From a bacterium (GTDB lineage Bacteria; Bacillota_I; Bacilli_A; RF39; UBA660), in NCBI GenBank assembly GCA_030531905.1, contig JAUNMG010000002.1, positions 1 to 46,093 of the forward strand: a stretch of DNA of 46,093 nucleotides, in the 5' to 3' direction. Both the position numbers and the translations under genes were made by a program. The notes under the pieces are model-generated. The model was given only the letters and a program-made list of their open reading frames with translations, was not told the DNA's origin and ran no database searches. This document shows positions 18,219 to 34,167 of this stretch, piece by piece; the stretch's first letter is position 1; every line of letters begins with the position of its first letter.

Positions 18219-20471
18219 TTATCTTAATTGAACTCCATAGCCATTATCACAAGTCATATACAGCCATCTTAATGATGGCCATGAACTAGCAGAGGCATTT
18301 GCTAATAAATGATTAGCAGCACTCAAAACATGAGAATAATTACTACTATCTGAAATAAAATCATAATATCCTGTATATTCAAGATTCCAACGACCTCCAA
18401 GACCTTTTTGTGCAAGTAATTCTTGAAATCTTGCAATTCTTGAATTATCTCCATCTTGTGCTTGTCCTGTTAGTAAATAACAATTAGTTTCTCTTACACT
18501 AGCAGTTAATGTTATGTCATTATCTGGCATTGCTAATCCACCAATAATTCCTCCATTATAAATCCACCCATTAAATACATGAACACTATCAACTGAATAG
18601 CCTAGCATTGGTACTTGTGCATTATAATTTACTCTTTGTGAAGAATAAACAGAGCCATTTGGATTTTTGTAGGTTACTGTATGAGTTCTTATTTTCCAAT
18701 TAGCAGTAAATGTTCTGTTTCCTATTGATCCATTTTTAATAGTTATGGTATTTGATGTATTACCATTTTCATCAGTCCAACCTGTGAAATCATAACCTGT
18801 TCTTGTTGGAGTACCAATAGTAATATCTTCATCTTCAATAGTATAAGTTTCTACTTTATTAGTTAATTTTCCACCATTTAAGTTATAATTTATTGAATAT
18901 ATAGTAGGTTTCCAATTAGCAGTAAAAGTAATATTCCCAATCGTTCCATGCTTTATAGTTACATCTTTTTTGGGAGTATCGTTATCAGGAGTAGTCCAAC
19001 CTAAAAAGTCATATCCTCTTTTTGTTGGAGTACCAATAGTAATATCTTCACTCTCAACAGTATAAATAGTTGGTGGATTTTCCAAAGTTCCACCATTTAA
19101 GTTATACTTGATGTCATAATAAACTAATCTCCAATTAGCACTAAAAAACATATCTCCAATAGTTCCTGTATTTACCTGAATTTGTTTATTTAATTTACTA
19201 CCATTACTACCTGTCCAACCCATAAAGTTATATCCTGTTTTTATTGGCATATCAATAATAAAATTATCAGATTCAATACTATAAGTTGCTCGTGCTTTAT
19301 CCAATATTCCACCATTTAACTTGTAGTAAATTGTATAATCTCTCAATCTCCAATTAGCATCAAAAGAAAGATCGCCTGTTGTACCTGTTTCAACAGTAAC
19401 TACCTTTGTTGGTCGTACTATATTATTACCTGTCCAACCCATAAAGTTATATCCTGTTTTTGTTGGCTTATCTAATTGAAATGTATCATTTTCAACATTG
19501 TAATTATTTAATAAATTGTCAGCTGTTCCACCATATAAATTATAATTAAGATTGTAATTTATAATTTTCCAATTAGCAGTAAAAGTAATATTCCCAATCG
19601 TTCCATGCTTTATAGTTACATCTTTTTTGGGAGTATCGTTATCAGGAGTAGTCCAACCTGTGAAATCATAACCTGTTCTTGTTGGAGTACCAATAGTAAT
19701 ATCTTCACTTTCAATAGTATAAATAGTTGGTAGGTTTTCTAAAGTTCCACCATTTAAGTTATAATTTATTGAATATTGAATAGCTTCCCATTTGGCATAT
19801 AATATAATATCTTTTTCCATATTTTTTGTTATTTTAGATATTTTTTTATTAAACTCTTTATCTAAATACCAACCTAAAAAGTCATAACCTTTTTTGTTAG
19901 GAATAGGCAATTCAAAATTGCTACCTTTTTTATATTCTTTGATTTGATTTACAAGTTCTCCACCATTTAATTGATACTCAATTTTAAAAATATTTTCTTT
20001 TTCTATCTTTTGCTTCTTTATAATTTTATTTTTTTGTTTTTCATCTGTTACTTTAGGTTTAATATCATCAAGACCTGTTATATCATCAATAATTGGTGTA
20101 ATAGGATCAAGTATTTTCTTTTTTACAGGCTCTTTTGTATCGAAAGACAATAAAAAAAGCAATACTAATAATATTAATAATAGTAAATGCTTTCTTTTTA
20201 TTTCTATATATCTATTATTTCCAACATATATATAGCCTTTAGTAAACCCAAATATTTTATTTTTTACTATATATTTCTTTTTTCCATCAACAAGTAGGTC
20301 TGTTTGTTGCTTTTTATTTTTCTTTAATTTTTTCAATTTTGTTTTACCAACTATAAATACATTTTTTCCTTCATCTAATTGTCTCTTTTTTATATAAGGT
20401 ATATGATGTGTGTATTTTAATTTTTTATCTTTTTTTATACATACTTTGTAAATATTTTTATCATAATTCAC
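18219..20471 (-). CDS. Surface protein with InlB B-repeats (Listeria-Bacteroides repeats)
   Basis: A 750-residue protein: a basic cytoplasmic region, one membrane helix (about 96-110), a Lys/Pro linker, then six full InlB B-repeats and a partial one with hallmarks such as YNLNGG, TPTRTGYDFTGW and FTANWK, and a C-terminal region of about 100 residues. Such repeats occur in extracellular adhesins. I chose the GTG at 20471: AAGGGG lies 9 nt before it and the upstream gene stops 4 nt earlier; the ATG at 20519 would overlap that gene by 44 nt. Two repeats share a 94-bp identical block. It may help mating-pair contact. Confidence 0.85.
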   Translation of the reverse strand: MNYDKNIYKVCIKKDKKLKYTHHIPYIKKRQLDEGKNVFIVGKTKLKKLKKNKKQQTDLLVDGKKKYIVKNKIFGFTKGYIYVGNNRYIEIKRKHLLLLILLVLLFLLSFDTKEPVKKKILDPITPIIDDITGLDDIKPKVTDEKQKNKIIKKQKIEKENIFKIEYQLNGGELVNQIKEYKKGSNFELPIPNKKGYDFLGWYLDKEFNKKISKITKNMEKDIILYAKWEAIQYSINYNLNGGTLENLPTIYTIESEDITIGTPTRTGYDFTGWTTPDNDTPKKDVTIKHGTIGNITFTANWKIINYNLNYNLYGGTADNLLNNYNVENDTFQLDKPTKTGYNFMGWTGNNIVRPTKVVTVETGTTGDLSFDANWRLRDYTIYYKLNGGILDKARATYSIESDNFIIDMPIKTGYNFMGWTGSNGSKLNKQIQVNTGTIGDMFFSANWRLVYYDIKYNLNGGTLENPPTIYTVESEDITIGTPTKRGYDFLGWTTPDNDTPKKDVTIKHGTIGNITFTANWKPTIYSINYNLNGGKLTNKVETYTIEDEDITIGTPTRTGYDFTGWTDENGNTSNTITIKNGSIGNRTFTANWKIRTHTVTYKNPNGSVYSSQRVNYNAQVPMLGYSVDSVHVFNGWIYNGGIIGGLAMPDNDITLTASVRETNCYLLTGQAQDGDNSRIARFQELLAQKGLGGRWNLEYTGYYDFISDSSNYSHVLSAANHLLANASASSWPSLRWLYMTCDNGYGVQLR

Positions 20472-20475
20472 AATA

Positions 20476-21225
20476 TTATCTTCCCCTTTCTTTATCTTTA
20501 CAAAAACTTCTATCATCATTAAAACTTAATTCCAAATTACCATAACCAAGTATTTTATATTCATCTTCTTCAAATGTTATTATGTCATCTAGGTTATATT
20601 TTTTTACTTCTTCTTTTAATTTTTCAATATCATAATCGTTAAAGTCATCTGCATAATATTCCTTCCAATCTTCTTCTGTTATATGGCACATCGTACTTTC
20701 TGACTCATGTACTGTATCATATATCTCTTTCATTAATTTTGAGCATTTTGATATTTTAGGAAGATTAATATATTTTTCAAAATCTCTATATATTAAGGAT
20801 TTCATTTTATTTTTAATAATAAATATATCCTTATAATCTAACTCATAACTAGCAACTATATTCCCAACCATTTTATTATTTTGATACAACATTGCACGAC
20901 ACCTCATATCTCCAAAATCACTTTTCCAAACATCTGTTATCTCAACTTTTCTATGAGGGAACTCATTTTTGTACCAATTATCAAACTTTTTCCATTCATT
21001 TTCCTTATAAAGGATATCACTTAAAAGAATAACATTGTATTTTTTCTTTATTTCTTCCATTTGACTAATCCAATCATCTGACTCATAAGACAATGTTCCA
21101 TATTCACTATACATTTTGTTAACATTATCTTCTTTATTTACTTTATCAAGATATATTTCTATTGCTTCATATTTCTCTGTACCAATAGATTTTTTAATTT
21201 CTTCATATTCTTGTAATATACTCAT
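20476..21225 (-). CDS. Unrecognised 249-residue protein of the transfer operon
   Basis: A highly charged soluble protein with no signal peptide, membrane helix or motif I recognise. Blocks of note are EWKKFDNWYKNEFPHRKVEI and ITEEDWKEYYADDFNDYDIE. The last codons (KDKERGR) contain the ribosome site of the next gene. It starts 4 nt after the previous gene and lies between VirB6-like and surface-protein genes. No function is assigned. Confidence 0.65.
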   Translation of the reverse strand: MSILQEYEEIKKSIGTEKYEAIEIYLDKVNKEDNVNKMYSEYGTLSYESDDWISQMEEIKKKYNVILLSDILYKENEWKKFDNWYKNEFPHRKVEITDVWKSDFGDMRCRAMLYQNNKMVGNIVASYELDYKDIFIIKNKMKSLIYRDFEKYINLPKISKCSKLMKEIYDTVHESESTMCHITEEDWKEYYADDFNDYDIEKLKEEVKKYNLDDIITFEEDEYKILGYGNLELSFNDDRSFCKDKERGR

Positions 21226-26097: not shown

Positions 26098-26850
26098 TTA
26101 CCCTCTTTCTTTTGCTTTTTTTCTTTTAAATCTATTATTCTTTTTATTATCTTTCTTAATTTTGCCCTCATTTTTATCAATTCCTTTTTCCTTATTTTTC
26201 TCTTTCTGTTCTTCTTTTATTTTATTTAATTGTTCCTTAACAGATGGTTTTTGTTTTTTAGAAACCTCCTCCTCTGTATAATTTTTGTTCTTGTAAGAAG
26301 GATCTGACTGAGGGCTTTTCATCGGGTCTATATCAACTTGTTCCTGTTCTTTAGTAGGAGACATAATATCATCTACTAAATCTTCTACCTTTTTATCTTT
26401 ATTTTTACTTTCTTCTTTAACTTTTGCTTGTTCTTGTTCCTTTTCAATTTCATGTTTTATTGTTGCATTATTAGTTGTGTATAAGTTGAATTTTTGAACA
26501 ATTCTATTAATTTTGCTTGCATCTTCTGCTTTTACCATAATGTCTACTAAACTATCTGGGTTTTTATCTTTTTTATTGACTATTGCATGATACAATACAC
26601 CATATCTTTTCGCTTCTTCTGCAAACTTTTTTAAATCATCTTGTTTTATTGAAAAAACCTTTATTTCCTTTCCAGATTTTAATATCTTTGATAAAGATGT
26701 CTTCCCTTTAGTTTTTGTATGTCCTTTTGATAATGCAGCCAATAATGCAAGTAGTTCTTTTGTTGCTGATCCTGCTACTCTTAAATACATTTCAGTACCC
26801 TGTAATACTATTCTAACAACAGATTCAGCAGCCTCACCTGATGAGTTCAT
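26098..26850 (-). CDS. PcfB family (DUF3801) conjugation accessory protein
   Basis: A 250-residue protein. The first 125 residues fit the PcfB family: AAESVVRIVLQGTEMYLRVAGSA, KTKGKTSLSKILKSG and YGVLYHAIVNKKD. A long, Lys/Glu-rich disordered tail follows. PcfB of pCF10 helps link the relaxosome with the coupling protein (known). The start overlaps the end of the relaxase gene by 17 nt and the last codons (KKAKERG) carry the next gene's ribosome site. Confidence 0.85.
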   Translation of the reverse strand: MNSSGEAAESVVRIVLQGTEMYLRVAGSATKELLALLAALSKGHTKTKGKTSLSKILKSGKEIKVFSIKQDDLKKFAEEAKRYGVLYHAIVNKKDKNPDSLVDIMVKAEDASKINRIVQKFNLYTTNNATIKHEIEKEQEQAKVKEESKNKDKKVEDLVDDIMSPTKEQEQVDIDPMKSPQSDPSYKNKNYTEEEVSKKQKPSVKEQLNKIKEEQKEKNKEKGIDKNEGKIKKDNKKNNRFKRKKAKERG

Positions 26851-28183
26851 CTTTATTCACTTCCTTTCTTTCTTCGTATTCTTTTACTTCTTTTAAATTA
26901 GAACTAATCGTTGGTATTCTTGTTTCTATATCTTCACATAATTCCACCTCCTTTCTATATTCTTTTATTTCTTTTGATAATTCATCTATCTGCATTTTTA
27001 TATTATTTTTTGAGTTAGTATCCTTTGTTTGTTTGTGTTCTTTCCATAACTTACTCCTCATATTCATGAGAGTAGTAAGTTTGGTTGTAATTGTTTCTTT
27101 ATACAAAAAAAATTGCTTGTTAGTTTTTAGTTCATTTCTAACAAGCAATTCTGCTTCTTTTGATAAATCATCTAATTTTTTTATATCCAACCTTACAGAT
27201 GGAGGAAGTTTTTGATATGGATATTTTTTGGGAAAAACTTTCAAAATATAGCAATATTTTAGATATATAGCATATATCCCTTTTTTCTTGTGATTTGAAT
27301 ATTTAGTCTTTCTTATATGATGTATTTTGTTATTATATTCTTCTATAAATGGTATTCTTGTAGCATGAGTATTTTGTATACGTTCTGTTAACTTATCAAT
27401 AGAATAATCTTCTCCAAAACATCTCACAATTCTTATATTTTTTTTGTAAGGATCTCTCCTTATACTTAATTTATTTGCTCTATATGTTAACTCATATCCC
27501 ATTGCAATCATTAATTCTTCAAAATCTTTATAAGAATATGCCATAGCAATAGCTCTATTTAAATCTTCTTTTGCTATTGTATAATAATTTATTCTTTGAA
27601 AGTTTCCCTGTTGATAATTAGCATAGTTAATTCTACTATTCCTACATGGCTTTTCTTTTAAAACACTTAATTTATATTCTTCACATAAACTATCTGATAT
27701 TCTTCGCAATTCTGCATAAGTTTCTCTGTTGTCATAATACTTTTTACCATCTACAAATGATACAGAATTAATTACAAAATGATTGTGAATATGATTAGTA
27801 TTAATATGTGTACTAACTATAACTTCAAATCTATCTCCCCACATTTCTTGTGCCAATTTAACTCCTATCTCATGTGCTATTTCTGGTGTTACTTCTCCCT
27901 CTTTAAAAGATTGAAAAGCATGATAGCCTTGTATTCCATTTTCTTTATTAAACTGACCTTTAGTAATAGCCATTTCTTCATAAGCAATTTCTGGAGTAGA
28001 ATGTATTCCTGATACAAATAATTGTTCTTCTGTTTTATAACTATCTTCTATATATTCAACAGTTTTATGCAAATCTTGATAATTTAATTTACTATTTGAG
28101 TTTTTTGTCTTTTCCACATTAGTTGTATAATCAATAACATGATCTAATCTGCTTCCTATTTTCCAAATTGAAGTTACTGCAAT
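26834..28183 (-). CDS. Relaxase/mobilisation nuclease (MOBP type), apparent AUU start
   Basis: The protein has 449 residues from the start chosen. It holds the relaxase core: Tyr19 in VIDYTTN, likely nucleophile, and the histidine cluster HINTNHIHNHFVIN (about residues 120-135) that binds metal. It would nick the transfer origin and lead the strand out. Homologues begin MAVT-IW; here AVTSIW follows ATT at 28181-28183, with AAGGAG 8 nt before it. The only alternative in frame, GTG at 28201, lies inside that ribosome site. An AUU start would be weak and could limit expression. The C-terminal part is basic and helical. Confidence 0.9.
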   Translation of the reverse strand: MAVTSIWKIGSRLDHVIDYTTNVEKTKNSNSKLNYQDLHKTVEYIEDSYKTEEQLFVSGIHSTPEIAYEEMAITKGQFNKENGIQGYHAFQSFKEGEVTPEIAHEIGVKLAQEMWGDRFEVIVSTHINTNHIHNHFVINSVSFVDGKKYYDNRETYAELRRISDSLCEEYKLSVLKEKPCRNSRINYANYQQGNFQRINYYTIAKEDLNRAIAMAYSYKDFEELMIAMGYELTYRANKLSIRRDPYKKNIRIVRCFGEDYSIDKLTERIQNTHATRIPFIEEYNNKIHHIRKTKYSNHKKKGIYAIYLKYCYILKVFPKKYPYQKLPPSVRLDIKKLDDLSKEAELLVRNELKTNKQFFLYKETITTKLTTLMNMRSKLWKEHKQTKDTNSKNNIKMQIDELSKEIKEYRKEVELCEDIETRIPTISSNLKEVKEYEERKEVNKDELIR

Positions 28184-28242
28184 ATTATCATCTCCTTCCA
28201 CAAAAAAAGGGAATATATTTTTTTATAATATTTTCCCATAGA

Positions 28243-28974
28243 TTATTTATATAAATCCTTATATAGTTTATTTCCTTGTTCTATAACAGATTTTAAACTT
28301 GATAAATCATAGTTAAGTTTTTTACTTATATTATTTGTTATATCGTTATAATGCAATTTATCGAATTCTTCTTCTATAATATCATTCTTTTCATTATATA
28401 AAGTAACATGAAGATAATCCCAATCTAACCAAGTTATAGAAATCACTTGATCATTATCTAATGCTATATCACAGTCTAAATTTGAAAGATAAAAATGCAA
28501 ATCAAATTCAAGTAACTTTGGCATTTTTTGATTAGGAACACTAAAGGTAATTCCATTATCTTTTAGTACATAATATCCTTCCTTATTCTTAATAAAATTA
28601 TTTACTTTTATACCTTCATTGAAATGACTTTCTAATTTATTTTTCGTATTGCTATAAATTACTAAATAAATACAAAATGAACAAATAAGAATAATTAATA
28701 TACTAATAATTACTTTTAAAATTACTTTATACTTTTTAGTATTTTTTGCGTTTTTATCAATTTCTTTAACCATATTCATATTTTCTTTTAATAAGATGTC
28801 TAGGGAAATATTAAACTCATCACTTATCTTAATAAGTGTTTCTATATCTGGATAATTTTTTCCATTTTCCCAATTTGATATAGTTTGTCTTGTTACATTA
28901 AGAACTTCTGCAATATCATCTTGGCTCATCTTATTATCCTTTCTAATTTTTTTAATTTTTTCATCCAGATTCAT
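28243..28974 (-). CDS. XRE regulator with a membrane segment and external domain
   Basis: A 243-residue protein. An XRE helix-turn-helix lies at residues 7-60 (KIRKDNKMSQDDIAEVLNVT, RQTISNWENGKNYPD), one membrane helix at about 85-105, and an outer part of about 135 residues of unknown fold. Such proteins may sense external or membrane signals. A similar regulator follows on the same strand, 111 nt upstream. GGAGG precedes the ATG. A role in control of transfer or of the neighbouring cargo is inferred only from position. Confidence 0.8.
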   Translation of the reverse strand: MNLDEKIKKIRKDNKMSQDDIAEVLNVTRQTISNWENGKNYPDIETLIKISDEFNISLDILLKENMNMVKEIDKNAKNTKKYKVILKVIISILIILICSFCIYLVIYSNTKNKLESHFNEGIKVNNFIKNKEGYYVLKDNGITFSVPNQKMPKLLEFDLHFYLSNLDCDIALDNDQVISITWLDWDYLHVTLYNEKNDIIEEEFDKLHYNDITNNISKKLNYDLSSLKSVIEQGNKLYKDLYK

Positions 28975-28984
28975 TATTTATTCC

Positions 28985-29070
28985 TCCTTTCAACATCATA
29001 ATAAAACCTTTTTAGTTATTGTAACATCAAAAGGTTTTTACATCATAGCAAGAATTTCTTGCTTTTTAAT
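28985..29070 (-). other. Inverted repeats between the two XRE genes
   Basis: Two palindromes lie in the gap: a 10-bp AAAACCTTTT / AAAAGGTTTT pair separated by 17 nt (about 29003-29039) and AGCAAG / CTTGCT (about 29047-29063). Without a clear T-run on the minus strand they look more like operators for the XRE proteins than terminators. Confidence 0.4.
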
Positions 29071-29085
29071 AAATTGTAATTTGTG

Positions 29086-29649
29086 CTATTCACAGGTTCC
29101 ACTATGACTTTTAAAATAATTATCTATATTTGCCATTGAATTATCAATATTATTAAAATTTACAATTTTCTTTATTTCATTTGACATTTCTTTTGAGCAA
29201 CTATCACATTTAAAATAATCATTTGTGCCAAATTCTATTTGATACTTTTTATTATCAATAGAACATATTGTAGTAGCGCTGCTTTCCACATTATGATTAT
29301 CCTTTTTAGCAACTGTACAAATTCCTAAACTTATTACTGCAATTATCATAAATACAACATAGCCAATAAATATAAATCCTATTACTTTTAAAATTTTTAT
29401 TATTATACCAGCTAGTCGTTCTGTGTTACTTATTTTATTCATTAAAAACTCCTTTGATTCATTATCCAAAATTTCATCAATACTTACATTAAATGCCTTT
29501 GATAATCTTTTTAATTGTTCTGGGTTAGGTGTTGTTTCTCCTAATTCCCAATTAGAAATAGTTTGTCTTGTAACATCAACTACTTCTCCTAATTGTTCTT
29601 GTGAAAGTCCTTTTGACTTTCTTAATGATTTAATGTTTTCTTTTAGCAA
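29086..29649 (-). CDS. XRE regulator with a membrane segment (paralogue)
   Basis: A 187-residue protein. The XRE domain (residues 5-60, LRKSKGLSQEQLGEVVDVT, RQTISNWELGETTPN) is close to that of the preceding regulator, followed by a membrane helix (about 85-110) and a short external part with two Cys pairs (CSIDNK, CDSCSKEM). An external zinc or disulfide site is possible. No repeat or ribosome site is unusual. It is adjacent to the IS110-type element. Confidence 0.8.
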   Translation of the reverse strand: MLKENIKSLRKSKGLSQEQLGEVVDVTRQTISNWELGETTPNPEQLKRLSKAFNVSIDEILDNESKEFLMNKISNTERLAGIIIKILKVIGFIFIGYVVFMIIAVISLGICTVAKKDNHNVESSATTICSIDNKKYQIEFGTNDYFKCDSCSKEMSNEIKKIVNFNNIDNSMANIDNYFKSHSGTCE

Positions 29650-29800
29650 TTTACAACATCTCCTTTCCTATAAGCATTATATTAAGGATTGTTCGTTGCT
29701 ACAAGCAATGCTTTTTAACATTTAACTCTAACCTCTACAAATTGACTATCTAAGTTTTGTCAATACTAAATTTATAAAAATATTATACCACGACTAAAAT

Positions 29801-29833
29801 CACGAAAATAGGCATTTTTTTAAAATTTTCGTG
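29801..29833. repeat. 9-bp inverted repeat near the IS110-type element
   Basis: CACGAAAAT (29801-29809) and ATTTTCGTG (29825-29833) are perfect inverted copies 33 bp downstream of the transposase stop. It may be a subterminal IS structure or the operator of the XRE gene downstream. Its bases are not conserved at the other IS flank. Confidence 0.45.
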
Positions 29834-29866
29834 TATTATAGTGATATATGTGATAAAATGAATTTG

Positions 29867-31069
29867 TTAATTTATTTTGAATGTTGTATTATTTTTACAC
29901 ATTGTATATAACATTCTTAATATTTTTGTTGAACACGCAGTTAGGTTTTCATAGTAATGTTTGCCTTCTGCTTTTTTTGTTAAATAATAATTATAAACGG
30001 GATGGTTAGGACACTGACGACCTAATTTAACTACCATTTGACTAATATTAAATAATATCCATCTTGCATATTTATTTCCTCGTTTAGAGATTGTTCCATG
30101 AACATTAATACTTTTTCCTGATTGTATAATTGTTGGATCTAACCCACAAAAAGCAATTAATTGTTTATGGTTATCAAACCTAGTAATATCCCCAAGTTCT
30201 CCAAGTAATTCAGTTGTTAATACTTCTCCAATACCATAAAATGAATTGATAATATTAAAGTAAGGTGATTCTTTTGCTGTTTCAATCATCTTGTCTTTTA
30301 ACTCATTTATTGTCTTAATGTTTTCTTGTAAAACACTTGCCATATCTGATAAGTTTTTAACATCTGAATGATCTTTATCTACTCCTGGATAAGAATTAAG
30401 AGAAATCTCTTTAATTTTATTTGCTAATCTTTTGTAATAATAATCATGTCTTGAATTAGTTTTATATAAATTATTATATAAAGCATCAATTCTTTTTTCT
30501 TTAACTATATAAGCATGAGGAAATGTTTTTATAAAGTTTAAAGCTGTTTCTTCATAGATTCTACTACCTTTAAATATTTCTTCAAACTCTGGAAAACAAA
30601 TATTAATCAATCTCTTATATCTATTTTTACAACTAACATTTAACTGTGTTAGATAAAAATACTGTCTTGTCATCGCTTTTAAATTAGCATATAAATCTTT
30701 CTTTGATAAATCGTGATATTCTACTTCATTAACAAAAAATAACTTGGCTAATCTTATACAATCTTTAGTATCTGTTTTCGTTTTTCTTAAAGTATCATAA
30801 TTGTTTTTAGTAGTTAAACTATTGATTACCAAAGTATTAAAATTATTCTCTTTAAAATATCTTTCTACTGGCAAATGATAGATTCCTGTTGATTCCATGA
30901 ATATTGTTAAATCTTCTAATTTAAAACTATTAATCTGATTTTTCAATTTATCAAAATCCTTTATATTATGTTTAATTTCCTTTGGTTCAATTAAAACCTC
31001 TCCATACTCTGTAGATAACATTACCATACTTTTACATTTTGCAACATCTACACTTAATACTGCTCTCAT
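29867..31069 (-). CDS. IS110-family transposase (bridge-RNA-guided recombinase)
   Basis: A 400-residue protein with an N-terminal RuvC-like DEDD domain (SVDVAKCKS, EST in FMESTGIYH, DTKD in KTDTKDCIRLAK) and a C-terminal Tnp20 domain carrying YGIGEVLTTELLGELGDI, CGLDPTI and the serine region SGKSINVHGTISKRGN. IS110 enzymes recombine DNA guided by an RNA made from the element's own non-coding end (known for IS621). The start has AAGGAG before it. Length matches full-size relatives, so the enzyme is probably intact. Confidence 0.93.
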   Translation of the reverse strand: MRAVLSVDVAKCKSMVMLSTEYGEVLIEPKEIKHNIKDFDKLKNQINSFKLEDLTIFMESTGIYHLPVERYFKENNFNTLVINSLTTKNNYDTLRKTKTDTKDCIRLAKLFFVNEVEYHDLSKKDLYANLKAMTRQYFYLTQLNVSCKNRYKRLINICFPEFEEIFKGSRIYEETALNFIKTFPHAYIVKEKRIDALYNNLYKTNSRHDYYYKRLANKIKEISLNSYPGVDKDHSDVKNLSDMASVLQENIKTINELKDKMIETAKESPYFNIINSFYGIGEVLTTELLGELGDITRFDNHKQLIAFCGLDPTIIQSGKSINVHGTISKRGNKYARWILFNISQMVVKLGRQCPNHPVYNYYLTKKAEGKHYYENLTACSTKILRMLYTMCKNNTTFKIN

Positions 31070-31245
31070 TACTTACTCCTTTCTGAATTTAAGTCTTCTG
31101 TTTCCACCATTACTTCATCAAGCTTGTTATATAGATTCTTTGACCTCACTATCTTAAACTAAATTAATAATAGAAATAAAAGCTGAACTGTCAATTTGTT
31201 AGATTCTAAGACCTCTGTAATTTGCCGTTCTCACTTAAACTCTTA
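31070..31245 (-). ncRNA. Likely bridge-RNA region upstream of the IS110 transposase
   Basis: About 175 nt of non-coding sequence on the same strand lie directly before the transposase gene, the size and place of IS621-type bridge RNA. It contains ATTACAGAGGTCTTAG-like sequence resembling AATTTGTAGAGGT motifs at the two neighbouring gaps (about 29731-29743 and 31760-31773). The guide loops cannot be defined without folding. Confidence 0.4.
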
Positions 31246-31293
31246 GTAAATAATTTAACATAAAAAATAAGATATAAATATTAAATTATTTAC
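31246..31293 (-). repeat. 13-bp inverted repeat near the IS edge
   Basis: GTAAATAATTTAA (31246-31258) and TTAAATTATTTAC (31281-31293) form a perfect 13-bp stem with a 22-nt loop, 28 nt after the aac(6') stop. It may end the aac(6') transcript or mark the IS end; the following minus-strand sequence has no T-run. Confidence 0.45.
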
Positions 31294-31320
31294 ATCTTAA
31301 AGTATACTTGTAATTTGTTG

Positions 31321-31755
31321 CTATAATTGTTTTGTAAAACATATAATTTTATTTACTTCTTTAAATCCATTTTTTAAATGAAATCTATAACTTATCTCAT
31401 TTTCTAATTCGCAATCACTTGCTATTTCTTTACAACCTTTTTCTTTTGCCCAATTTTCACTTTGTATAATTAACTGTTGTGCTATATTTTGGTTTCTATA
31501 TTCCTCTTTTACAAAAATACCTTCCAAATATGCGACAGGGCTAGAATTAACACCTTCAACATATTCGTACCTTAAAGAAACTTGTGAAAAAGCAACTGGA
31601 ACATTATTCTCATAATCAAGATATATACATACATTATCTGAAAATAAATATTCCTTAAATTCATTTTCTAAATCTACCAATGAATGATTATTCCATAATT
31701 CTTTCGCTAATTTTGCTACAATTACATAATCTTTTTGTTCTGCTTTTCTAATCAT
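31321..31755 (-). CDS. aac(6'): AAC(6')-I-type aminoglycoside 6'-N-acetyltransferase
   Basis: A 144-residue GNAT enzyme. The match to AAC(6')-I proteins such as those of Acinetobacter and Citrobacter is clear: LRYEYVEGVNSSPVAYLEGI, FVKEEYRNQNIAQQLI (acetyl-CoA loop), WAKEKGCKEIASDCELEN, and a final HLKNGFKEVNKIICFTK. These enzymes acetylate the 6'-amino group of aminoglycosides such as kanamycin and tobramycin. Length is normal for the family. AGAGGTG precedes the ATG. It lies next to the IS110 element inside the transfer region and so looks like cargo. Resistance itself is inferred, not shown. Confidence 0.8.
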   Translation of the reverse strand: MIRKAEQKDYVIVAKLAKELWNNHSLVDLENEFKEYLFSDNVCIYLDYENNVPVAFSQVSLRYEYVEGVNSSPVAYLEGIFVKEEYRNQNIAQQLIIQSENWAKEKGCKEIASDCELENEISYRFHLKNGFKEVNKIICFTKQL

Positions 31756-31826: not shown

Positions 31827-32153
31827 CTATTTCTTATCCATAAATAAATATTTTTTCTTAATTTCTATAATAAGATTATTTAAAATATCAACTTGTTTTT
31901 TGTAATAGGGAACATCTATAAAATTAAATGTGTTAGCTTTATGAGCTATTTGATTTAAGTTAATACCAACTTTTCTTATTTCTTTAATAGCATTATAAAA
32001 CTCTTTTGGAGGTTTTTCTTTTGGTTGATAGTCTAATGCTCTTGTTCTCATATAATTTGATATAGTCATTCCAACTTGTGCTGCTTTTTCTTTAATTAGT
32101 CGATCCTCATCATAACTAACTAAAATCTGTTTTTTTAAAACTCTTGTTTGCAT
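31827..32153 (-). CDS. mobC: MobC-like relaxosome accessory protein
   Basis: A 108-residue protein with the ribbon-helix-helix pattern and MobC end: KAAQVGMTISNYMRTRAL, then AIKEIRKVGINLNQIAHKAN. MobC proteins help the relaxase open the transfer origin (known). The ATG lies within the last codons of the DUF3789 gene (19-nt overlap) and AAGGAG precedes it. It sits 0.5 kb from a candidate oriT; the relaxase gene is 3.6 kb downstream, separated by the cargo. Confidence 0.88.
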   Translation of the reverse strand: MQTRVLKKQILVSYDEDRLIKEKAAQVGMTISNYMRTRALDYQPKEKPPKEFYNAIKEIRKVGINLNQIAHKANTFNFIDVPYYKKQVDILNNLIIEIKKKYLFMDKK

Positions 32154-33195: not shown

Positions 33196-34167
33196 TCATC
33201 TCTCCTTTTCATATCTTTCTTTATAATTTATTTTTAATTTTTTACATAAAAAATCATTGACATCTTTACCAATTCTTGGTGGATCATCAATGACTTTATA
33301 TCTACTACTTAAAATTGTTTTGAGAGCAAAAGATGCTTCTCGTCCTGTAATATCATTATCTAAATGTAATATAATTTTACTTATATTTTGATGCTGATTT
33401 AGATAATATTTTAATGCTAATGGTATTGTACTTTCTTCAATATTTCTTGCAGGTCTATAAACTCCTGCTAAAGATAATAGATTTTCGTTATACCATTCTT
33501 TATTTTCTAACTTTAATAATGTGGCATAAGATAATAAATCTATCGCACTTTCGAATAAATGTAATGTATCGTTTTTATTAATTGAATCTAATTTAAAAGA
33601 GAATGCTTTATGACTTCCATAGCATTCTCCCTTAAAATTATTATTTAAAGTACCTCTAATAAATCCATATCTAGCAGTATTATTCTTATCCATACCAACA
33701 AAAACAACATTGTTATTTTTGTCTTGAAATATTGTTTCATTATCAATACACTCATCTATAATATCTTTATCAATACCTCTTTTTAATAAATAATTTATTG
33801 CTTTTTCATTATCATTTGCTTTAGTTGGTAGAGTTAGATTTAATTTTTTTAAATCATTTTGTTCTTCTTTTATTGCATATTTATAATATGTTGGTGTTTC
33901 TATTTTTTCATGATTTAAAATAATATTCATTGCTTCTTTGAAACTATAATCTCTAACTTTAATCAAATAATCCAAAGCACTTTTACCACCAATACCACGA
34001 GAAAACCAATTCCATAATCCATTTGAAATAACTAAACTATCATGAGTTTTTGTAATGTAAGTGCTATCACTTTTTTTTATTAATTCATCTGGCTCATAAT
34101 TTTTTAGATAAGATAATAAATCCATTTGTTTTACATGATTTATTTGATTTTTAGTATAATATGCCAT
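33196..34167 (-). CDS. DUF3991/Toprim primase-like protein
   Basis: A 323-residue protein. The N-terminus has the DUF3991 zinc/CHC2-like pattern (NWFSRGIGGKSALDYLI), the C-terminal half a Toprim domain (HLFESAIDLLSYATL, then HLDNDITGREASFALKT with the conserved Asp pair). These proteins act as primases for conjugative or replicated DNA in many Gram-positive ICEs (known). It overlaps the DUF3848 gene by one base and precedes the XRE gene by 3 nt. Confidence 0.85.
   Translation of the reverse strand: MAYYTKNQINHVKQMDLLSYLKNYEPDELIKKSDSTYITKTHDSLVISNGLWNWFSRGIGGKSALDYLIKVRDYSFKEAMNIILNHEKIETPTYYKYAIKEEQNDLKKLNLTLPTKANDNEKAINYLLKRGIDKDIIDECIDNETIFQDKNNNVVFVGMDKNNTARYGFIRGTLNNNFKGECYGSHKAFSFKLDSINKNDTLHLFESAIDLLSYATLLKLENKEWYNENLLSLAGVYRPARNIEESTIPLALKYYLNQHQNISKIILHLDNDITGREASFALKTILSSRYKVIDDPPRIGKDVNDFLCKKLKINYKERYEKER

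Follow-up and report, generated by a model that had tools for sequence, protein, structure and literature searches.

Where does translation of a relaxase begin when ATT stands at the head of its conserved N-terminus? The question is raised by the window (the whole stretch of 46,093 nucleotides that was analysed), where the minus strand reads TTTTTTT GTG GAAGGAGATGATAAT ATT GCA GTA ACT TCA ATT TGG at the start of a relaxase gene. The first-pass annotation had placed an ATT directly before the residues AVTSIW, at a good distance from AAGGAG, and this was borne out: the ATT lies at 28181-28183, with AAGGAG ahead of it at 28192-28197. To judge from sequence comparison, the gene very probably begins with AUU. 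The features concerned are:

26834..28183, minus strand: relaxase coding sequence counted from the ATT, 449 aa, MobA/VirD2-like (Pfam PF03432, E = 6.2e-39)
28181..28183, minus strand: probable relaxase start codon ATT; the homologous codon is ATG in 79 of 101 relatives and ATT in the sister gene of locus L031
28187..28198, minus strand: extended Shine-Dalgarno (SD) sequence GAAGGAGATGAT, pairing with AUCACCUCCUUU at 11 of 12 positions
28199..28201, minus strand: in-frame GTG at codon -6, rejected as start, with a T-run directly before it and the SD after it

The match of the protein to PF03432 reaches 133.7 bits (cut-off 24.6). Tyr19 and the first His of the HINTNHIHNH motif are invariant (99/99 each), while later His residues are found in 98/99, 97/99 and, for one of them, 77/99 sequences. 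The roles that we ascribe to the N-terminal Tyr and the His cluster are presumed ones, and the MOBP class is likewise our assumption from the motif and the NikA/MobC partner. With 42.7 and 56.9 bits against the NCBIfam TraI/MobA(P) and SAG1250 models, far below their cut-offs of 250 and 575, the relaxase is related to these subfamilies but is not a member of either; the PDB gave no match at E ≤ 0.01. The surrounding element is an integrative conjugative element of the CD1110/CD1115 type: its VirB4 CD1110 scores 1041 bits with NF045971 (cut-off 325), its VirD4 CD1115 534 bits with NF045973 (cut-off 250), and Pfam also identifies a tyrosine integrase and a NikA/MobC-like protein. Within the conjugation region lies, in addition, a 766-aa protein (18219-20519) with six stretches of Listeria-Bacteroides repeat (PF09479).

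Which other codons of the window could serve? The reading frame is open upstream of the ATT as far as a stop at codon -14, and the codons approaching the start are GTG GAA GGA GAT GAT AAT ATT. The first-pass annotation had allowed for a single canonical codon, a GTG inside the ribosome site; that GTG is indeed the sole in-frame ATG, GTG or TTG upstream, but it adjoins the upstream side of the SD rather than lying within it. Starts further downstream were discarded, the next canonical codons (GTG at +22 and TTG at +37) being both past the invariant Tyr19. A frameshift from an out-of-frame codon, of which the first-pass annotation had named none, was also rejected: the ATG at -8 meets a stop after five codons and the TTG at +1 after two. 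This +1-frame TTG (28180-28182) is common to all 11 ATT genes described below, window included, where it opens an overlapping ORF of 2-12 codons; it occurs inside ATT GCN because the second codon is GCN, and it could compete with the AUU for the ribosome.

Is the ATT peculiar to this gene? Relaxase loci were collected from 196, 386, 385, 36 and 38 genomes (overlapping sets), 47 GTDB loci and 18 fetched stretches. The resulting 129 loci, window included, were reduced to 118 with an adequate N-terminal match, 106 distinct ones and 101 with a resolved start, leaving out 11 loci by the match, 12 duplicates and five unresolved starts. Plasmid records (440, all below 60% identity) were kept out of the start counts, and none of 29 pattern-matching stretches on viral contigs encoded a relative. 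The 101 non-redundant genes start with ATG (79), ATT (11), GTG (5), ATA (4) or TTG (2), and the start column is clear because residue 2 is Ala in 96 of the 99 aligned sequences (L085 and L058 being omitted from residue counts).

The distribution of ATT among these genes is recurrent, not uniform. The sister gene L031, 82% identical to that of the window, likewise has ATT, as do nine further genes, whereas the next closest relatives (L078, L079 and L095; 61-65% identical) have ATG; this is what came of conservation in close relatives, which had been named as a check on the start. Elsewhere, the ATT gene L005 is 85-87% identical to the ATG genes L002, L003 and L080. A tree made by a quick method, with several long branches and without L085, requires at least seven changes for ATT, four of them forced by supported (starred) branches, and two for ATA. 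ATT is nevertheless retained in sister pairs that differ by 18-35%. Between the window and L031, 10 of 36 nucleotides agree upstream, 13 of 18 across the SD and 50 of 57 past the start; by this alignment the DNA just upstream is unrelated, and the SD region and start are common to both.

Other genes of the same loci offer a control. Homologous starts reading ATT, ATA or ATC number 3 of 118 among mobC, primase and DUF3801 (44, 19 and 55 rows), one of the three adjoining a TTG, as against 15 of 101 ATT/ATA starts among the relaxases (Fisher p = 0.001, rows not independent). Seven other neighbor genes, with 0 to 12 rows each and a poorly aligned start, were left uncounted; two of their rows read ATA. 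At locus L046, which also has an ATT relaxase, the homologue of the window's primase (33196-34167) shows ATT in the homologous start position, preceded by a GGTAGTGATC-like SD; the mobC homologue of L127 has ATC at the homologous start.

As for the ribosome site, the extended SD of the window forms a computed duplex of 12 nt (GAAGGAGAUGAU) with -11.4 kcal/mol at an aligned spacing of 6. The anti-SD was taken from 12 of 145 genomes of the host's gut Bacilli family; in the window's own assembly no 16S 3' end was found. The placement of start codons was scored with a simple SD-plus-spacing model, whose spacing parameters are those of published ribosome-site calculators and in which the identity of the start codon carries no score. 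At the ATT or ATA of the 15 relaxase genes the values run from -3.0 to -11.1 kcal/mol. What distinguishes these genes is the form of the SD: a TGA, by which the SD helix is lengthened (GGUGAU), lies within the 13 nt preceding the start in 15/15 ATT/ATA genes, as against 6/30 ATG genes with ≥43% identity (rows not independent, p = 1.6e-7). Among the more distant rows, the TGA-extended SD is present in 5/49 ATG and 3/4 GTG genes. Total SD strength showed no significant excess over 30 ATG genes (≥44% identity), with p = 0.46 when spacing is included and 0.21 when it is not.

A useful point of comparison is infC. The window's own copy reads GGAGGTG TTAGTT ATC GCA, with the same layout as the relaxase and ATC as start, and the host's infC itself appears to begin at a non-canonical codon. 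By homology, the starts in 21 members of the host's gut Bacilli family (L139 plus 20 loci) are ATC in 17 and ATA in four, not AUU; of 30 loci, nine belong to other families and could not be aligned at this point. Like the window's relaxase, these genes combine an ATH codon, an extended SD and an Ala second codon, and 18 of the 21 carry a GTG at codon -3 (the exceptions being L146, L148 and L159), a result of GGAGGTG being placed at about six bases from the start. In L146 there is no canonical codon before the upstream stop. The two differ in that infC is a housekeeping gene with ATC or ATA in 21/21 family loci, whereas the relaxases switch between ATG and ATT/ATA. The starts of three genes of Staphylococcus aureus, infC (AUA), cvfC1 (AUU) and ccpN (AUA), have been mapped by ribosome profiling and have predicted extended SDs, as set out in a passage of PMC13009471.

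Could the relaxase start instead at an upstream in-frame GTG, ATG or TTG, with the ATT coding for an ordinary isoleucine? Codon -6 is GTG in the window and TTG in L031, and codon -3 is GTG, ATG or TTG in 10 of the 15 ATT/ATA genes (the window not among them) vs 0/30 ATG genes at ≥43% identity, a contrast that a start at codon -3 would predict too; automatic annotation would, we expect, probably pick such a codon. However, its position is not conserved, being -3 in 10 genes, -4/-5 in L012 and -6 in the window and L031, some genes having more upstream, and it is missing altogether from L099 (ATT) and L011 (ATA), where stops close the frame at -6 and -2 and no canonical codon follows until an ATG at +26 and +37, respectively, beyond Tyr19. 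In the remaining 13 genes, the 22 upstream canonical codons score worse than the gene's own ATT or ATA in every case (13/13), the best reaching -3.7 kcal/mol and 18 of 22 lying above zero; in the window, the GTG at -6 has +6.7 against -11.1 kcal/mol for the ATT. An ATG at another codon in relatives had been named beforehand as a finding that would speak against AUU. In-frame ATGs do occur among the 15 genes, in L009 (-3), L012 (-5) and L037 (-9 and -15), and those at -3 and -5 are poorly placed relative to the SD, but the relatives that start with ATG use the same codon as the ATT genes. Since infC, whose AUA is ribosome-mapped in S. aureus (PMC13009471), shows GTG at -3 in 18 of 21 family members, the simplest reading of the NTG at codon -3 is that it comes along with a long SD at its best spacing. 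The GTG at codon -6 (window) and the NTG at -3 (relatives) were rejected for their placement relative to the SD, for their lack of conservation and on account of infC, a control that in this family rests on homology, and we hold an upstream start of any kind to be improbable. Still less credence, next to none, is due to a sequencing or assembly error or the decayed start of a dying gene. The assembly is metagenomic, and ATT and ATG differ by a single base; yet there are eleven distinct ATT genes, associated with a special SD, the frame of the window's relaxase is unbroken and has kept the invariant Tyr and His, and from a decayed start one would not expect an ATT still present in a sister that is 18% different.

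A subtler alternative shares the first half of the explanation that we prefer: the AUU start is real, but the long SD makes the third base unimportant, and the codon drifts near-neutrally with no regulatory meaning. The several swaps between ATG and ATT on the tree are in keeping with this, and clostridia can express engineered proteins from AUU, according to a passage of PMC11040787. GTG and TTG, however, are the usual weak starts, and here they are fewer than ATT/ATA (7 vs 15 among the 101 relaxases, and 2 vs 15 in the 47 rows with ≥43% identity); the retention of ATT in diverged sister pairs also argues against it. We rate drift as possible but rather unlikely. Translation from AUU, with a long SD positioning the ribosome and an inefficient start keeping the relaxase scarce, is the explanation in which we place high confidence. 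For the start itself, the first-pass proposal gains from the ATT of the sister, the repeated exchange of ATG, ATT and ATA at the homologous codon, the SD placement and the two relatives that lack any possible canonical start.

How would such a start work? The long SD helix would anchor the 30S subunit with AUU in its P site; fMet-tRNA would then start on a codon that is poorly decoded, and the relaxase would be made sparingly, with a yield of the order of a tenth of that from AUG. A low relaxase level may in turn spare the cell nicks and a premature transfer, and IF3, through its discrimination, may tie the yield to the cell's initiation-factor state. The figure of a tenth comes from S. aureus, where reporters of cvfC1, ccpN and citZ gave ∼10% of AUG in poor medium, ccpN rising up to 30% in rich medium, in the part of PMC13009471 that describes them. 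By these precedents the AUU most likely acts as a translational brake of about tenfold, and the plausibility claimed for such a brake at the outset follows from these effects of AUU and AUA measured in Firmicutes. The repeated switching between AUG and AUU/AUA suggests a deliberately weak start that restrains DNA transfer.

The likeness to cvfC1 (AUU) and ccpN (AUA), whose non-canonical starts are conserved and whose low yield has been measured, lies in such a start with an extended, start-proximal SD in Firmicutes; they differ from the relaxase in being chromosomal genes with ribosome-mapped starts, the relaxase being a mobile-element gene. In E. coli, the AUU of pcnB reportedly limits translation of a chromosomal gene; pcnB shares its codon with the relaxase and differs as a proteobacterial housekeeping gene. 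E. coli infC is regulated by its own product, as a passage of PMC13009471 notes. As for IF3, its coupling to the relaxase start is plausible by analogy with Streptomyces sigR, where a GTC start is repressed by IF3, holding down a potent protein, as excerpted from PMC5472188. The sigR case concerns GTC and a sigma factor, and the effect of IF3 is demonstrated there, whereas for the relaxase it is proposed from that precedent. In the open-access PMC literature, no report of an AUU-start relaxase was found among the matches listed.

Another intriguing question is what precedes the gene. Upstream of the relaxase lie:

28202..28237, minus strand: terminator-like hairpin (28209-28237) plus T7 (28202-28208), directly before the GTG and the SD
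28243..31755, minus strand: four genes between mobC and the relaxase (Pfam), with other gene content there in relatives
28243-28974, minus strand: HTH protein (Pfam)
29086-29649, minus strand: HTH protein (Pfam)
29867-31069, minus strand: IS110 transposase (Pfam)
31321-31755, minus strand: GNAT acetyltransferase (Pfam)
31827..32153, minus strand: NikA/MobC-like relaxosome protein (PF21983, PF05713), the immediate upstream neighbor of the relaxase in many relatives

Where mobC gives way to the relaxase, the element seems to have a cargo site. Its gene content differs among loci (28243-31755 in the window, L031, L032, L037, L046 and L079), often with a hairpin and T-run just before the SD. At L032, an elongation-factor-like gene lies upstream of the relaxase and no mobC was seen there; we take this gene, from its N-terminus, to resemble those for tetracycline ribosomal protection.

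The distance to mobC was counted in the 66 rows with mobC placed, 35 of the 101 having been dropped where none was found upstream and that of the window being placed by coordinates. In 47 of these 66 rows, no more than 100 nt separate the mobC stop from the relaxase start. Distances above 100 nt are found in 7/8 ATT rows vs 11/50 ATG rows (p = 0.0007); with ATA counted too, the association is weaker (7/11 vs 12/55, p = 0.01) because three ATA genes follow mobC directly. The pairs that vary independently in ATT and mobC distance number three on supported branches and six over the entire tree, a count too low to apply a sign test, and the link of ATT to the genes between mobC and the relaxase was set aside.

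The hairpin of the window folds with -8.1 kcal/mol (z -1.39; 21 of 200 shuffles as good) and is not among the predictions of a consensus terminator scan; because the scan missed it and the fold beats shuffles modestly, it is called no more than terminator-like. Counted in unrelated upstream sequences, with no significance demanded of the hairpins, a hairpin plus T-run precedes the start in 8/11 ATT genes (window included), 0/4 ATA genes and 9/30 ATG genes (≥43% identity). On plasmid RA3, MobC represses the operon that it shares with the relaxase, as stated in a passage of PMC4175270, and cargo inserted between mobC and the relaxase would take the latter out of such an operon. In Tn916, an insulator terminator and canT are described as guarding a Gram-positive ICE against premature expression of its DNA-processing genes, in a passage of PMC11658703; this guard acts on transcription, and the hairpin of the window is a prediction. 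From the self-repression by RA3 MobC and the Tn916 insulator, it is reasonable to think of a replacement brake for a relaxase outside the mobC operon. A broader idea is that AUU/AUA has evolved repeatedly as a brake on conjugation that responds to IF3, arises preferentially upon cargo insertion between mobC and the relaxase and couples nicking to the initiation-factor state; this we put forward tentatively, and doubt more than we believe.

What does this gene add? It is a further case of the known class of ATH-start genes with an extended SD, of the infC, ccpN and cvfC1 kind. ORF finders that use the usual start set miss the rare starts other than AUG, GUG and UUG, so that the N-termini of such relaxases would probably be annotated wrongly; in S. 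aureus, mapping found four starts outside this set, and GTG and TTG make up 7.4% and 9.1% of annotated starts, by the figures excerpted from PMC13009471. The natural swaps of AUG and AUU at one site, with the matching SD features, provide a ready comparison for studying how extended SDs support weak starts. For the biology of these elements, the AUU start of the relaxase suggests that conjugation is controlled in part when translation is initiated.
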